From: Candidatus Uhrbacteria bacterium RIFOXYB12_FULL_58_10
Lineage (GTDB): Bacteria; Patescibacteriota; Patescibacteriia; UBA9934; GWF2-40-263
DNA: 37,874 nt
Direction of reading: 5' to 3'
Assembly: GCA_943354165.1 (NCBI GenBank)
Contig: CALRBH010000008.1
Coordinates: forward strand, 1 to 37,874
Below, piece by piece: positions 21,288 to 37,146 of this stretch (the stretch's first letter is position 1; each line of letters starts with the position of its first letter). The translations under genes were made by a program, and so were the position numbers. The notes beneath the pieces were generated by a model. The model ran no database searches. It had not been told where the DNA came from and saw only the letters and a list, made by a program, of their open reading frames with translations.

Positions 21288-21840
21288 CCCAAATAAAATG
21301 GAATGGAGGACTTATGAGTTTTCCGCGGCGGAGAACGACATCAAAGAGGCGTTAGGTGACTCTCTGGTGTCATGTGTCCTGTAGACATATCCGCCAAAAA
21401 CGGAACACTCTGACCGCCGGAATCTATCATGAACTGTTTAAGGCGTCAAACGAGAGGGAGGCAGGGGGATGTAAGGGTTGTAAGGGGCGTAACGGCGGTA
21501 AGGGATTGGTTCGGGGTGGATACAGGGTTTATTGGGCTTGAACAATAAAAAAACGCCAAACTTTTCTATTTGTCGTTTTCAGCCTTTCTTTGTCGTTTGA
21601 CGTTTGTTGTTTATCGCCACGATCTCCTCCCTAAGGCTGCAAAGTGGCGCCACGATTTACGAAGTGTCAAACCAGTGCATCCAGAGCGCGAGGAGAGAGA
21701 TTTATGTCCCCAGTAAAGGGGACAAAACGCCCTTCTGCCCTGATCCGACGGAATCGTACGCCGCTTCGCAGCCTTTGAGAGAACATCGAGATTGATCACC
21801 AGCCAGGCCACGCGCGTACCGCGCGGCCTGGCTGGCAAGA
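21288..21840. other. Gene-free region with repeat words and hairpins
   Basis: No ORF here is convincing. It holds four GTAAGGGNN units at about 21471-21505, TTTGTCGTT-family words at about 21569-21612, and a TGTCCCC / GGGGACA hairpin near 21704-21723. At 21799-21835 there is a GC-rich stem CCAGCCAGGC(CA)CGCGCG / CGCGCGGCCTGGCTGG, immediately after the stop of the minus-strand gene at 21841. That last stem may end the transcript, but it has no T-run. The rpoB promoter should lie in the part nearest 21300; no good match was found. Confidence 0.6.
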
Positions 21841-27858: not shown

Positions 27859-28422
27859 TTACTTCCCCACGCGCTCCGAGTACGAGCCATCTTCCGTGTC
27901 CACGACAATTTCGTCCCCTTCGCCGATGAAGATTGGCACCTTCACCATGAGGCCGTTGTCCATGATCGCTTCCTTGGTCACGTTTCCGGAAGCCGTATCA
28001 CCCTTCACTGCAGGCTCGGTGCTTGCGATCTTGAAGGTGATCTTCTTCGGGAGCTGGATGGTGAGCGGGACATCGTCGTGCGTGACGATGGTCACCTCGA
28101 TCCCCTCCTTGAGGTACTGGATGTCCGATCCGATGTCAGGCTTCGCGATCTGGACCTGTTCGTAGTTGCTGTTATCCATGAACGTGTAGAGGTGGCCGTC
28201 GTTGTAGAGGTACTGCATCTTCTTGTACTGAACCTCCTCGAACGTAAGGCTCTCGGCGGACTTGAAGTTGTTGTCGACGACCTTGCCGGACTTGAGGTTC
28301 TTCAAGCGCGTGCGCACGAACGAGCTTCCCTTGCCTGGGGAGACGCGCTGAACTTCGATGACGATACATAGATCGCCGTCGTAGCGGATGACTGTACCTT
28401 TGCGCATTTCATTGGGAGACAT
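27859..28422 (-). CDS. efp: Translation elongation factor P
   Basis: 187 aa with the three-domain EF-P layout. The N-terminal KOW-like domain has the tip loop VSPGKGSSFVRTRLKN, in which Lys31 is the position lysylated by EpmA in gamma-proteobacteria (Lys34 there). The C-terminal part includes GNVTKEAIMDNGLMVKVPIFIGEGDEIVVDTEDGSYSERV, close to the family signature. EF-P rescues ribosomes stalled at polyproline. An epmA-like gene lies directly upstream on the same strand. The leader is a GTAAGGGNN repeat whose C-rich side ends ~14 nt before the ATG; no Shine-Dalgarno. Confidence 0.97.
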   Translation of the reverse strand: MSPNEMRKGTVIRYDGDLCIVIEVQRVSPGKGSSFVRTRLKNLKSGKVVDNNFKSAESLTFEEVQYKKMQYLYNDGHLYTFMDNSNYEQVQIAKPDIGSDIQYLKEGIEVTIVTHDDVPLTIQLPKKITFKIASTEPAVKGDTASGNVTKEAIMDNGLMVKVPIFIGEGDEIVVDTEDGSYSERVGK

Positions 28423-28436
28423 ATGTCGTGGGATCG

Positions 28437-28505
28437 TGGGGCTGTAAGGGGAGTAAGGGTTGTAATGGTGGTAAGGGGAAAACGGAGCAGTCCCTTACCG
28501 CCCAA
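28437..28505. repeat. GTAAGGGNN repeat array between epmA-like gene and efp
   Basis: Units GTAAGGGGA GTAAGGGTT GTAATGGTG GTAAGGGGA (28447-28482) are followed, after ~12 nt, by the facing piece CCCTTACCGCCC (28492-28503). A partial hairpin is possible. Related words occur at 3268-3299, 7390-7430 and 21471-21505. Confidence 0.8.
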
Positions 28506-28507
28506 AA

Positions 28508-29473
28508 TTATTGAAATAATTTTGAGGCCGGGAACAGCAGGACATCCTCTATCGAAGCCGCCCCCGTTGCAAGCATGTGCAATCGGTCGATTCCGAGGGC
28601 ATTTCCAAAGGTGGGAGAACGGACGGATGGTAGCAGCGTGAGCAGGTCCTCGTCAACGGGGAAGGTCGACTTCCCTTGTGCCCGGCGTTCCTCAAGTTCA
28701 CCTTCGAAACGGGCCCGTTGTTCGGCCGAATCAATAAGTTCTGTGAACCCATTACTCAATTCTACCCCATCGATATACGACTCCACCCGCTGGGCGTATT
28801 TCCCGTCGGCCGTCTTCGCCGCTAGTGCGGCCTGGCAGAGCGGATAGTCGTAGACAAACGTCGGATGCATGCCGATTTTCGATTCCCCCCACACGAGGAA
28901 AATGCGATAGAACAGGTCGCTCTCCGTATCCGAGGCGTCACGATGTATCCCAAGACGGTCACAGGCCGCCGCAAGATATTCCGTCGAAGCCAGATCCAAA
29001 TCGACGCCGCAAGTTTCGAGGAGAAGATCTCGAACGCGAACGCGACGGAACGCCGGCAACTCGCGTCCGAATGCGGCGCACGCTTCGTGGACCAACGCTT
29101 CGGTCTCATCCATCATGGCATGGTAGTCCTTCCCCTGCTGGTACCACTCAATCATCGTGAACTCCGGATTGTGCGTCCCACCAAGCTCTTCATCATTCCG
29201 AAACACCCGGGCGAGCGTGAAGATTTTCTCAAACCCCTTCCCTAACAGCTTCTTCATGGAAAACTCAGGACTGGTGATGAGCGCTCCCTGCCGAGACTTC
29301 TCCCCGGGGACAACCATAGTCGTCTCGAAGTACGTAAAATTCGGCGCGAGGTCTGGGCTCGCGACAAACGTCGGCGTCTCGACTTCGATGTATCCCCGCG
29401 CACGAAAGAACGACCGAACGAGATCGTTCAGTTTCTGACGTTCGAGAGCGATTTTTTGAACGGGTTGAGCCAT
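28508..29473 (-). CDS. epmA: EpmA-like EF-P lysine ligase (class II LysRS paralogue without anticodon domain)
   Basis: 321 aa from the Met at 29471-29473 (MAQPVQKIALERQKLN); the track's start seven codons earlier falls about where a TAAAAT box would start transcription. Class II motifs are present: FTLARVFRNDEELGGTHNPEFTMIEWYQQG (motif 2) and NALGIDRLHMLATG (motif 3). The start corresponds to the catalytic domain of LysRS; the N-terminal OB fold is absent, and length equals E. coli EpmA (325). EpmA attaches (R)-beta-lysine, made by EpmB, to EF-P. Adjacency to efp with its PGKG loop supports this. A catalytic LysRS fragment is the alternative. Confidence 0.88.
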   Translation of the reverse strand: MAQPVQKIALERQKLNDLVRSFFRARGYIEVETPTFVASPDLAPNFTYFETTMVVPGEKSRQGALITSPEFSMKKLLGKGFEKIFTLARVFRNDEELGGTHNPEFTMIEWYQQGKDYHAMMDETEALVHEACAAFGRELPAFRRVRVRDLLLETCGVDLDLASTEYLAAACDRLGIHRDASDTESDLFYRIFLVWGESKIGMHPTFVYDYPLCQAALAAKTADGKYAQRVESYIDGVELSNGFTELIDSAEQRARFEGELEERRAQGKSTFPVDEDLLTLLPSVRSPTFGNALGIDRLHMLATGAASIEDVLLFPASKLFQ

Positions 29474-29578
29474 ATGTGGCTTGACTTTTCTCATATTTTA
29501 GCGTAATATGCAACCCCTCACGCACTCCGTGAGCCTTCGTCATTTCCAAACTGAATACTGACTACCACAGGAGACATA

Positions 29579-32849: not shown

Positions 32850-33893
32850 TTACCAGGCTAGGCGCCACGAATCTCCTTCCTTTATAAGCCGATAGGTCAC
32901 CCGGGAGGTACCATGCTCAATGGTAAGCTCAAATATCTGTTTAAATGCCACGCCTGTGGCGGAAGAAGTCCAGGTCGGAAGCGTCTTTGCCGAAACCACG
33001 CGGAGCTCCTGCATCCCCACTTCCTTAGGTTCAAACGACGATGGATAAGAAGCGATAAAGCTCCCCGCATCCATGGCCTTTTGGGCGTCGGTGGCGAGGA
33101 ATTGGTAGAGATCTCCCTCGAGGGAACGCGCATCAAGATCGATGACGGCGCTTACGAGATTGAGGACGGCGGCATCAAACCAGAGGTCCACGGGGAACAT
33201 GCGCGCCACTGGTCCATCTTCATCGGGAAAGGCATACACCACTGGGCGGGCAACCAAAGGATGCGTCACCCGAATGCCGGTCCCGGCATCGATGCCTTCA
33301 AAAGCGAATTGACCTCCGGCGTCCGTACGAATACGCGTATCCCCCGCCACCAAATCGGCGCCGGCTACGGGGCCGCCGAACGGCGCTTTCAAAGTTCCGG
33401 CGATAGAGAGCTTCACAGGCACAGCCTCCTGGTGCGGAAGGAATCGTTGAATCACCCCGACGGTTTTATTGAGGGCAACCCCGATGGCGAGGGAAATCAG
33501 TATCGCAGCGATCGCTGCCGCCACCGCGCCCAGATAGCTCTTACGATGATTAGTATGCCGGTCGTGTATGTCGGCCTTACGTGCAAGACGCACGCCATTG
33601 AGAGCGAGCGCGAGCACGATGAGGATGAAAAGGAAAAGCGCGTACGCAAACTCGGGAGGAACGGACGGCAGGATCCGCTCCACGATCGTAGGAGTCGATA
33701 CGGAAACCGTAGACGGTTCCCCTTGAGGACGTTCCACAAACAGGAGCGAGGTGGTGAAGTTTCCGAGCTCGTCGATTGCTTCAACCCGATGCAACCCGTC
33801 GGAGACGGACGTCGGGACAATGGCTTCCCAGTCCCCGTCCTGGTCGGCTTCCACCTGACTGACGAGTTCCGGCTGTTGGGTGTCGATGGCCAT
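32850..33893 (-). CDS. Membrane protein continuing the split surface protein (half Ig, two helices, CarboxypepD_reg-like, NTF2-like)
   Basis: 347 aa. Residues 1-55 (QPELVSQVEADQDGDWEAIVPTSVSDGLHRVEAIDELGN) look like the second half of an Ig-type sandwich whose first half ends the upstream gene. Two membrane helices follow (about 82-101 and 120-143). Then comes a carboxypeptidase-regulatory-like domain (IAGTLKAPFGGPVAGADLVAGDTRIRTDAGGQFAFEGI). A ~120-residue end (AQKAMDAGSFIASYPSS...VTYRLIKEGDSWRLAW) looks NTF2-like. The ATG is 1 nt beyond the upstream TAA and in another frame. It is either the C-terminal part of a frameshifted gene or a coupled partner. Confidence 0.75.
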   Translation of the reverse strand: MAIDTQQPELVSQVEADQDGDWEAIVPTSVSDGLHRVEAIDELGNFTTSLLFVERPQGEPSTVSVSTPTIVERILPSVPPEFAYALFLFILIVLALALNGVRLARKADIHDRHTNHRKSYLGAVAAAIAAILISLAIGVALNKTVGVIQRFLPHQEAVPVKLSIAGTLKAPFGGPVAGADLVAGDTRIRTDAGGQFAFEGIDAGTGIRVTHPLVARPVVYAFPDEDGPVARMFPVDLWFDAAVLNLVSAVIDLDARSLEGDLYQFLATDAQKAMDAGSFIASYPSSFEPKEVGMQELRVVSAKTLPTWTSSATGVAFKQIFELTIEHGTSRVTYRLIKEGDSWRLAW

Positions 33894-33894
33894 A

Positions 33895-36420
33895 TTAGTA
33901 CACGATAAACGTTACCTTCCCGCCCGGAATGGTGCGACCGGAGAACCGATAGCCATTCGTCACCCTTCCGATGTCGTTAATGGTGATGATCGGACCATAT
34001 GACGTTCCTTCGGAAGGAGCGGGAGCCGGAAGGGCGATCGGTCGGCTCACAGGGGCCGATGTCTTGGCTGATGGGGTCGATGTCTTGGCTGATGGGGTCG
34101 ATGTCTTGGCTGATGGGGCCGCAGGCTCCCTTACTGGCACGAACACGACCTGTGGCGCCGGACACACAGGAGTGGAAACAGGGACGGATGCCTCCGGCTC
34201 CGGACATGCGGGAACAACCAGCGACTCCGGACACTGGAACACCACCGGCGGACGCGTCGCAAGCTTCACGCGCTCCCCCGTCATCTCATTGCCGCGCTGC
34301 GTGGTCCCGACCGGCATGAATGTGTACACCGTACCCGTCGTAAGGCCGTCGATGATAACTGAGTGGGATTCCGTAAGCTGACCGTCGAGTACGGTTGAAG
34401 TGGCGAACCCGAAATTAGGCGATCCGCTGTTCACAATCGGGTCGAACGTTCCGTAGACGACCCGTGAGGTCGAGTTCGGGTAGGAGCTCCAGGAGACGAT
34501 AACGGAATCGCCATCCACCTGCGTCACATCAACATCGTAAAGACGTTCTGGGAAGGATACGGAACCTCCTCCCCCGCCGCTTCCAGGGACGCAGGCGATC
34601 CCATCATCGATCACCACAGCGAACACCACGCGCTCCATGATGTTTCCGGAGAGATCCTTCGCATACACGATGACGGGCACCGCTTCCCCATCCGTAAAGT
34701 TCGAGGCCGGATCGATCGTAAAGGTGAAATCCGCCGGCGATCCCGTCACGTCGGTGGTGTCTCCAAGATAGTTCCCTCCGTTGAAATCGAGAGAGCTGGC
34801 GAACGTAATCTTGGTGCCGGTCGTCGTTACGGACCCTGCCCCGCCTCCGTTGGTATAATAGTCCCCGTTCACGAACACCACGACGTTCGAAAGATTCACC
34901 CCCGTCCCATTATCTTTTACATGAAAGAGAATGTTGGTCGTAGAGGTGATCGTCCCGTCGTTGCTCGGGCTCGTCCCGTCCACGAACGGTGCGTCGCTGT
35001 CGGAAGTGGAAAACGTCCAGACGTCCGTGACCATGGTGTTGCCAACCACGTCCTCACAATCAAACGCGGAAATGGACACGGTTTCATTCTGCGCGAAGTT
35101 ACTCGCTGGATTGATCACGTACTGCACGCCGAAATCCACCAGTGTCGCCGCCACTTCCGGATCAGTGGAATCAAACGTCGTGAGCGCAAACGATGGTGAT
35201 GAAACGTTGAACTGACAGCTCGCGGTCACGACCCCGGTCCCGGAAACCGTGCCCGGGAAGGTCTTCTTGTCGTGCACAATGACGGTGATGTTTGTGGAAA
35301 TGCTGTTCCCTGTGCTCGATCGCGTTGGTGTTTCGCTCACGACCTGCGGAGGCACCGTGTCCGCCTCGGTGGTAAACGTGAACGACTTTGGATTCATCGT
35401 GTTCGGCCCATTGGCATCCCCGAGCTGGTTCTGCGTTGGCGAGGCCAGATCGCGGAAGCCGGTGATGTCGATGGTGTAGGCGGTGTTATAGAGCCAGTTG
35501 CGCGTATCACTCCCGATGCCGAGCGGACTTGGCGGATTCACGGTCACCCCACACAGGTTTGTGCCCCACACGCCAGAACAGACATAAGCGTCGAACGCCG
35601 TCATATCATCAGCGCCGCCGTCGTCGTCTGCCGTAATGACGCCAGGGGGTGTCGTGGTGCTCACCCCGGTTCCGACGCCGACGTTATCGCCTTCCCCGTT
35701 CTTGGTATCGCGCAGGTCAAACGTATAATTCGACGAAACGGAAACCGCCGTCGCCGCGTTCGCTGGCGATGGATTCTCCGCGAACGGTTTAATCGTATCT
35801 GCCCAAAGGTGCAGACTGAAATCTTCTTCGTCATCGAGAATGTCGAGACCGGAAAGCGAGATGTTCGACTCCGTGGTCGCTCCAATGGTCCCAACGTTCA
35901 CGTCGAGCGTGCTCGGCGTACCGGTTGCATACGCGGCTTCCCCTGGCGCATCCACCGTCCAGGTGTTGGAACCAAAGATCCCGGTGCCGCTGGACGTCCC
36001 GCTGGTCCGGAACCCCGTAAGATTCACGCGCCCGCCGGAAATGGTCGCCCCAGCGTAGTTTGGAAAATACGTTCCATTGGTGAGCACGGAAGCGGTGAGC
36101 TTGGCGACGTTGTAATCCACCCAAATATTCGCCGCATCCGTCCCGCCGGAGACGATGCGCATGGTCGTCGTGAAGGATTGGCCGACGTAGTAATAGTTGA
36201 GGTCGGTCGTGACGCCCGTGCCGCCATCGCCTGTGTTGTCCCCGCCCGTGGTCGGCGATGTAGTGAGTTCGAAGGTATCGGCCCCGACAGGAGCAGCGGC
36301 TTGGGCAGAGGCTGACGCAAACGACAAAGAGCAAACGACAAACGACAAAGAAATCCAAAACGACAAACGGGTGAAAGGTTTGATGTTTGAGTTCTTTTTT
36401 TGTCCGTTCAACTTTTCCAT
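33895..36420 (-). CDS. Large secreted surface protein with cohesin-like, Ig-like and FN3-like domains
   Basis: 841 aa. Signal peptide ~1-42 (core SFWISLSFVVCSLSFASASAQA). Residues ~48-205 resemble a cohesin-type sandwich (VGQSFTTTMRIVSGGTDAANIWVDYNVAKLTASV...FPNYAG...GRVNLTGF). Then come Big_5/Ig-like domains to ~590 (repeated DxxxPxVxxxxP starts, GN ends) and an FN3-like unit (VTQVDGDSVIVSWSSYPNSTSRVVYG...IIDGLTTGTVYTF, ~610-700). A Cys/Pro-rich stretch, three PSAKTST repeats and a half Ig fold end at GGKVTFIVY. No anchor of its own; the next gene has membrane helices. The signal-peptide core is encoded by TTTGTCGTT repeats. No enzymatic motif seen. Confidence 0.8.
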   Translation of the reverse strand: MEKLNGQKKNSNIKPFTRLSFWISLSFVVCSLSFASASAQAAAPVGADTFELTTSPTTGGDNTGDGGTGVTTDLNYYYVGQSFTTTMRIVSGGTDAANIWVDYNVAKLTASVLTNGTYFPNYAGATISGGRVNLTGFRTSGTSSGTGIFGSNTWTVDAPGEAAYATGTPSTLDVNVGTIGATTESNISLSGLDILDDEEDFSLHLWADTIKPFAENPSPANAATAVSVSSNYTFDLRDTKNGEGDNVGVGTGVSTTTPPGVITADDDGGADDMTAFDAYVCSGVWGTNLCGVTVNPPSPLGIGSDTRNWLYNTAYTIDITGFRDLASPTQNQLGDANGPNTMNPKSFTFTTEADTVPPQVVSETPTRSSTGNSISTNITVIVHDKKTFPGTVSGTGVVTASCQFNVSSPSFALTTFDSTDPEVAATLVDFGVQYVINPASNFAQNETVSISAFDCEDVVGNTMVTDVWTFSTSDSDAPFVDGTSPSNDGTITSTTNILFHVKDNGTGVNLSNVVVFVNGDYYTNGGGAGSVTTTGTKITFASSLDFNGGNYLGDTTDVTGSPADFTFTIDPASNFTDGEAVPVIVYAKDLSGNIMERVVFAVVIDDGIACVPGSGGGGGSVSFPERLYDVDVTQVDGDSVIVSWSSYPNSTSRVVYGTFDPIVNSGSPNFGFATSTVLDGQLTESHSVIIDGLTTGTVYTFMPVGTTQRGNEMTGERVKLATRPPVVFQCPESLVVPACPEPEASVPVSTPVCPAPQVVFVPVREPAAPSAKTSTPSAKTSTPSAKTSAPVSRPIALPAPAPSEGTSYGPIITINDIGRVTNGYRFSGRTIPGGKVTFIVY
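34058..34120. repeat. Tandem repeat, 3 x 21 bp, inside the surface protein gene
   Basis: GATGTCTTGGCTGATGGGGTC is repeated three times (the last with one change), encoding SAKTSTP-type units in the linker before the C-terminal half Ig fold. The near-identity of the copies suggests recent expansion. Confidence 0.92.
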
Positions 36421-36473
36421 ATTTGTCGTTTTCTTTTTTCTTTGTCGTTTGGGATTTATCGTTTGTCGTTTCT
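36325..36473. repeat. Inverted repeat, TTTGTCGTT family, spanning the start of the surface protein gene
   Basis: Words AACGACAAA (36318-36366) and TTTGTCGTT (36421-36473) face each other around the ATG at 36418-36420. On the mRNA (minus) side, AAACGACAAACGATAAATCCC...GACAAAG can pair with CTTTGTCGTTT...GGATTTCTTTGTCGTTTGTCGTTT in the signal-peptide coding sequence. The start codon would be in the ~50-nt loop. Confidence 0.82.
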
Positions 36474-37146
36474 AATTCTCTCCTTCCACATCCAGATTGG
36501 AGATCATGAGGCTCAGATCCACAGAGTTTACCACTACGTCCTGATTCAGGTTCGGCCGCTGAACGTTTCCCGTAAGATCATCAGCGTCAATCACCGCAAG
36601 GAGCGTCGAGATATCCACCGAGTTCACCACATCATCCCCAAGCGTCGCAGGACTCGTCCCCGCTCCGTTTACATCACCCGCAAGGAGGACTTGCGATCCT
36701 TTTGGCACAGCATTGGACGGCTGGGTGAAGTTCAATACGTTATTCCCCGAGACGAGCGTCACATCCTGAAGGACACGCGTGAGATGCTGGTGCCCCTTGA
36801 TGCCTAGGTCATAGATCCCCGGAGACACTGTGAGATTCTCTGGAATGACATAGGTCCCATCGACACCTGCGGAAAGCAAGGTGGCGGCCGGTGCCGTTGC
36901 AAGAACCACGTCATCTCCGTTTGTGGCCGTACGTACGGTGAGGAAGAAATTGGAATCATCATTTGTCTCCGCGGCCCCGACCCTCCCTTGTGGCATCGCC
37001 CATTGTACCGTAGCGGTTACGTCCGAGGCGACGATCGCGGTCACAGAGACGTTTTCCGCAGAGACATACGCCGCGGAGGACACCAAACATGCGCCAATGC
37101 CTACGGCGGCGATCAGATATTTGGTTTGGGTTCCTCCGTGTTTCAT
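36472..37146 (-). CDS. Secreted protein with C-terminal dockerin-like domain
   Basis: 224 aa. Signal peptide or anchor ~9-30 (YLIAAVGIGACLVSSAAYVSA), a ~110-residue beta domain (carboxypeptidase-regulatory-like: GVDGTYVIPENLTVSPGIYDLGIKGHQHLTRVLQDVTL), then ~65 residues of dockerin type I character: GDVNGAGTSPATLGDDVVNSVDISTLLAVID and PNLNQDVVVNSVDLSLMISNLDVEGE. Two near-duplicated DxNxxxxVNSVD-type loops, each followed by a helix, are the dockerin plan. The first loop is stretched by an insert (AGTSPATLGD), so Ca2+ binding there is doubtful. It starts 3 nt after the preceding stop and is followed by the cohesin-like gene. Confidence 0.75.
   Translation of the reverse strand: MKHGGTQTKYLIAAVGIGACLVSSAAYVSAENVSVTAIVASDVTATVQWAMPQGRVGAAETNDDSNFFLTVRTATNGDDVVLATAPAATLLSAGVDGTYVIPENLTVSPGIYDLGIKGHQHLTRVLQDVTLVSGNNVLNFTQPSNAVPKGSQVLLAGDVNGAGTSPATLGDDVVNSVDISTLLAVIDADDLTGNVQRPNLNQDVVVNSVDLSLMISNLDVEGEN

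Follow-up and report, generated by a model that had tools for sequence, protein, structure and literature searches.

Inspection of the open reading frames at the contig end of the window (the whole stretch of 37,874 nucleotides analyzed here) identified four head-to-tail genes on the minus strand, referred to as A, B, C and D (Table 1). The source genome is 0.85 Mb in size and 98% complete. The genes for ribosomal protein S6 and ssb are located downstream of A-B-C-D, and the same gene order adjoining the same S6 gene is found in relatives of the same family, including Candidatus Uhrbacteria bacterium RIFCSPHIGHO2_01_FULL_63_20. The original prediction, made from the DNA letters, gave the open reading frames at positions that we can retain, but its placement of the membrane helices required correction: the order is giant protein A, dockerin protein B, cohesin protein C and anchor D, and the helices are carried by D, which begins just beyond the 33895-37146 segment of that prediction, not by C.

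Table 1. Genes and domains of the A-B-C-D locus (window positions).
Feature	Position	Strand	Basis
Gene A, giant surface protein of which the last 240 aa, with a Pro-rich (TEPAP)n tail, are encoded in the window; upstream part past the contig end	37150..37874 (ORF 37872-37150)	-	
Gene B, 224-aa secreted X-module and dockerin protein, signal peptide ~residues 1-30	36472..37146	-	
B residues ~46-147, X-module-like beta domain	36706..37011	-	Profile alignment to X-module and dockerin of PDB 5k39_B/5m0y
B residues ~155-219, dockerin, two calcium-loop/helix units (D158..D171..N175..D178; N199.N201.D203..N207..D210)	36490..36684	-	
Gene C, secreted protein of 841 aa: signal peptide (~residues 1-44) followed by cohesin, Big_5-like and fn3-like domains, a Pro-rich linker and the initial half of an Ig domain	33895..36420	-	
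C residues 45-209, cohesin domain	35794..36288	-	Intermediate L048 in Pfam Cohesin and fold match
C residues 354-472, weak match to the bacterial Ig-like domain Big_5 (E 0.02); Big_5 match in 10 of 12 family members	35005..35361	-	
C residues 629-716, weak fibronectin III / Pur_ac_phosph_N-like domain; 8 of 12 members of the family match Pur_ac_phosph_N	34273..34536	-	
C residues 809-841, first three strands of split Ig-like domain	33898..33996	-	
Gene D, membrane anchor of 347 aa with the rest of the split Ig, a pair of membrane helices, a CarboxypepD_reg-like domain and an alpha/beta domain at the C-terminus	32850..33893	-	
D residues 1-54, other four strands of split Ig-like (Big_13) domain	33732..33893	-	Big_13 match
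D residues 79-97, first membrane helix	33603..33659	-	Hydropathy
D residues 118-136, second membrane helix	33486..33542	-	Hydropathy

A relative (L041) encodes, at the same position, a protein longer than 2280 aa, with whose C-terminus the last 221 aa of A share 58% identity; counterparts in relatives range from 2280 to more than 3318 aa. One of these (in L042) contains a Peptidase_S74 domain and an extensin-like Pro-rich tail, as in fibre proteins. With a relative's protein as query, the remainder of A was not found elsewhere in the assembly, and no anchor was recognized in the C-terminal 240 aa. A is probably held at the surface through B and C; such giants adjoin the dockerin-cohesin pair in only part of the loci.

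At the junction of B and C (window 36319-36471), AAACGACAAA / TTTGTCGTTT repeats form the intergenic gap on one strand and signal-peptide codons of C on the other. These repeats are able to pair, the same decamer is present again at 21569 and 21589, and they could represent a mobile repeat or an attenuator. In a relative (L040:10626-10790), C has an additional N-terminal stretch (ERNEATSRREKFVIARRHQPTKQ) resembling a translated repeat of REP type that was inserted at the same junction. Elsewhere in the window (27859-29494), a short lysyl-tRNA-synthetase-like (EpmA-like) gene was noted by eye; it lies directly 5' of, and on the same strand as, the gene for elongation factor P, an arrangement that suggests lysylation of EF-P in this reduced genome.

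Dockerin and cohesin domains of B and C

Dockerin and cohesin are known as a kind of plug and socket from cellulose-digesting machines, and their interaction is exceptionally tight. Two VNSVD-type loop-helix units had been recognized at the end of the 224-aa protein B, and they are real: residues D158, D171, N175, D178, N201, D203 and N207 do not vary among the 23 relatives aligned, and position 210 holds D in 22 of them and E in the other. B thus contains the duplicated D-x-N/S-x-D-x-x-V-N-x-x-D calcium loop plus helix of type I dockerins (PF00404), and the domain is predicted to bind calcium. In the first loop, inserted residues separate positions 3 and 5, and a long loop 1 is also seen in the solved X-dockerin 5k39_B.

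Against the Pfam model Dockerin_1 (PF00404), window B scores 10.8 bits (E 0.57), below the cut-off of 22.9, and homology is established through the family, as 5 of 13 B homologues match the model (best E 2.7e-6). A profile of the B family finds the X-dockerin 5k39_B/5m0y in the PDB (E 1.5e-6; range 1.5e-5 to 1.5e-6) over both the X-module and the dockerin, as well as other cellulosomal dockerins (e.g., 2mte_A, 8e-5). In the alignment to 5k39_B the X-module sits immediately before the dockerin, as in an X-dockerin dyad. No cargo module was recognized in B besides these two domains.

For window C, no Pfam match to cohesin was obtained, either with the protein alone or in the genome scan, and homology to PF00963 is reached only via intermediates: homologue L048, aligned over the same domain of C, matches Pfam Cohesin with 46.3 bits (E 6e-12; cut-off 24.1). 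Searches of the PDB by sequence with C alone, a C-family profile or a cohesin-domain profile did not return a cohesin. The Pfam comparison (PF00963 and PF00404) proposed as a check in the original prediction therefore yields, for the window proteins themselves, a weak dockerin and no cohesin, the latter being gained through L048. Taken by itself, this outcome would have led to the wrong rejection of the pair; the gap to the Pfam families is bridged because relatives match Cohesin and X-dockerin.

As the genes B and C are in frame with each other, both proteins could be folded as one chain by reading through the TAG stop codon of B (as Gln), and this chain was modeled with AlphaFold from a 41-row alignment. 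The cohesin core has a pLDDT above 90, with a pTM of 0.52 for the joined chain. In a Foldseek search of the PDB each of the top 43 matches is a cohesin or a cohesin–dockerin complex (best E 4.6e-7), and the X-dockerin chains 2b59_B and 4wi0_B were matched as well. Comparison by VIA aligned model residues 240-406 with cohesins, at best with the ScaC cohesin (Z 14.2, rmsd 2.4 over 131 residues), at an identity to solved cohesins of ~14%. The cohesin-like sandwich expected behind the signal peptide of C, in residues 48-205, is thus confirmed by intermediate sequences and predicted fold at residues 45-209, in favor of the earlier reading. It is very unlikely that this domain is a generic adhesin β-sandwich of CLIPPER or pilin type that resembles cohesins by convergence. 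A CLIPPER domain (9ifr, Z 10.5) and streptococcal PilA (Z 10.2) do match the model, but cohesins score clearly higher, homologous intermediates exceed the Pfam Cohesin cut-off, and a dockerin gene adjoins the C domain throughout.

A split Ig-like domain and probable anchors of the cohesin protein

C ends in ...GGKVTFIVY and D begins with MAIDTQQPELVSQVEADQDGDWEAI... When the tail of C and the head of D are joined, they match Big_13 continuously over positions 30-93 (E 2.5e-4; 21.9 bits, with a cut-off of 27 bits), while the head of D alone covers 48-93. A natural fusion of C and D (L042) models as a seven-stranded sandwich in which the cut falls between strands three and four. The joined match and this model agree on a seven-stranded Ig-like sandwich across the junction, and the boundary between genes C and D cuts this Ig-like domain in two. 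Linkage of C to D by programmed frameshifting or readthrough was ruled out: the frame offset is 0, 1 or 2 among relatives, and D has its own start. The varying offset indicates a true split rather than recoding.

D lacks a signal peptide, so its N-terminus would need N-out export. The two halves of the Ig-like domain may reassemble across the separate chains, strands A-C being contributed by the C-terminus of C and strands D-G by the N-terminus of D. We see an even chance that C and D are locked in this way by a non-covalent, donor-strand-like snap joint that fixes the cohesin receptor to the membrane, its place being taken elsewhere by gene fusion or a second cohesin-dockerin step.

C is followed by D in 14 loci and fused to it in two (L042 and L142), and in about 11 loci membrane helices are located within the cohesin protein itself. 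In the Peregrinibacteria loci L138 and L144, a three-gene chain is found, consisting of a dockerin gene, a gene encoding a cohesin and a C-terminal dockerin, and a second cohesin gene, whose product ends in a membrane helix in L138. From its domain order, this chain appears to provide two successive, differently typed docking steps in place of the anchor D. No D was detected near B and C in L045:9234-12480. The recurrent tethering of the cohesin protein is the best support for its role as an anchored receptor.

In one locus (L121:9231-11389) the frame of C is broken into two overlapping open reading frames of 546 and 181 aa, which reflects either an assembly error or a real frameshift.

Conservation of the pair and a proposed surface clasp

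A dockerin gene followed by a cohesin gene on the same strand is present in 29 loci of one class, most of them less than 75 bases apart, and also in Peregrinibacteria; in L116 and in Candidatus Vogelbacteria L142 the two genes face each other. A search of 380 genomes of the class with dockerin and cohesin profiles identified a dockerin in 46, a cohesin in 42 and both in 29 (Fisher p 1e-21, a value that overstates the case since the profiles were built from the paired loci and the searched genomes are related). The side-by-side order stands independently of this value. Across the phylum, cohesins of the C type were detected at E 1e-10 in 34 of the 379 genomes drawn.

The divergences of the dockerin and cohesin domains correlate with r 0.88 (permutation maximum 0.45), in part because of shared ancestry. 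Shared ancestry does not account for the matching of types inside two-pair genomes (Peregrinibacteria L138 and L144, and G264 with L117 and L118), where dockerin type 1 lies beside cohesin type 1 and type 2 beside type 2. Adjacency and co-inheritance suggest that B binds C, and because dozens of related genomes carry the pair, it appears to be a clasp devoted to surface assembly rather than a digestion complex. We consider it unlikely that B and C share one surface complex in which the modules have drifted to other partners, in adhesin or sugar-binding use, with B not plugging into C. The insertion in the first dockerin loop and the low identity of the C cohesin to solved cohesins would fit such drift. 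Against it are the near-invariant calcium-loop residues, the paired inheritance and type matching in two-pair genomes, and the long loop 1 shared with the solved X-dockerin.

Scans of the 98% complete genome with Pfam models and family profiles identified exactly one dockerin and one cohesin, and no further domains of the B or C kind. A cellulosome combines a scaffoldin with several cohesins and several dockerin-tagged enzymes; here the genome encodes a single cohesin, and its single dockerin protein carries no catalytic domain. These counts rule out a scaffold with several clients and point to a dedicated 1:1 pair rather than a cellulosome. The original prediction of a compact surface docking system is upheld by the cohesin fold in C, the X-dockerin in B, a linkage conserved well past chance and a membrane-anchored partner, and has to be given up with respect to a scaffold serving multiple clients. 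It had also taken a lack of other dockerins in the genome as evidence against docking; that lack is indeed what the search returned, and we read it as the mark of a dedicated pair, with docking not disproved. It is very unlikely that B and C are the degenerate remnant of a former polysaccharide-degrading cellulosome. Their modules are akin to cellulosomal ones in fold and sequence, but the genome lacks a multi-cohesin scaffold and a second dockerin, the domains are not decaying and are conserved both across numerous families within the class and in Peregrinibacteria, and none of the scanned partner proteins has a glycosidase domain.

Gene order, domain identities, conservation, the 1:1 copy number and the split or fused state of C and D are established at these loci. 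We think it likely that B, C and D form a dedicated, non-cellulosomal cohesin-dockerin clasp on the patescibacterial surface, in which the dockerin of B sits in the cohesin of C and C is tied to the membrane by D. B and C would be exported by means of their signal peptides, the calcium-loaded dockerin would plug into the N-terminal cohesin of C, and the Ig/fn3 domains and Pro-rich stalk would carry C outward, with D holding the C-terminus of C at the membrane through the shared Ig-like domain. The assembly would pin B to the cell surface and, probably via B, the giant fibre-like A. The clasp may function in adhesion and, as the original prediction speculated, perhaps in attachment to a host.

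Patescibacteria are found on other cells or close to them, and little is known of how their surface proteins are held. The clasp would give a defined point of entry into the retention of giant surface proteins: the module is compact, occurs in about one in ten of the genomes sampled from the class, and is testable in vitro with two soluble domains of ~80 and ~165 residues. It would use the cohesin–dockerin principle as a one-to-one clasp as opposed to a multi-enzyme scaffold.

The type II cohesin and X-dockerin of Clostridium thermocellum (PDB 5k39, 5m0y; 2b59) share with B and C an X-module followed by a dockerin with a long first calcium loop, the cohesin sandwich, and a place at the anchoring end of a surface complex. 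Unlike the C. thermocellum system, B-C has no enzymes, no repeated cohesins and no SLH anchor, and each genome has a single cohesin and a single dockerin. Non-cellulosomal cohesins and dockerins have been described in ANME archaea (PMC9012536), and an Omnitrophota giant open reading frame contains nine dockerins (PMC10066038). These modules and the Archaeoglobus cohesin 2xdh have in common with B-C that there are few per genome, that they do not degrade cellulose and that they are presumed to act in surface assembly; B and C differ in that their genes almost always lie side by side and are inherited together, and in their connection to a membrane anchor by way of a split Ig domain. In the episymbiont Southlakia epibionticum (Saccharibacteria), the dockerin-domain protein SEML1_0315 is listed among the essential envelope proteins (PMC10633639). 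By its description it resembles B as a dockerin protein of an episymbiotic patescibacterium, although the entry in that list does not name a cohesin partner. A literature search for cohesin and dockerin together in Parcubacteria found no paper. B and C share the modules of the known non-cellulosomal kind, in a version that is paired, tied to the membrane and equipped with a split Ig joint.

Several further arrangements were observed. Pairs of the second type have small surface proteins and a protein anchored in the membrane as neighbors (L118:6438-8043, L120:5629-8574, L049:4880-7765), and the neighbor in L118 resembles the WxL-interacting protein domain (PF06030, E 2.6e-4). In the phylum search, several genomes of one family (G593, G619, G627) were found to encode two short cohesin proteins of ~210-260 aa in tandem.
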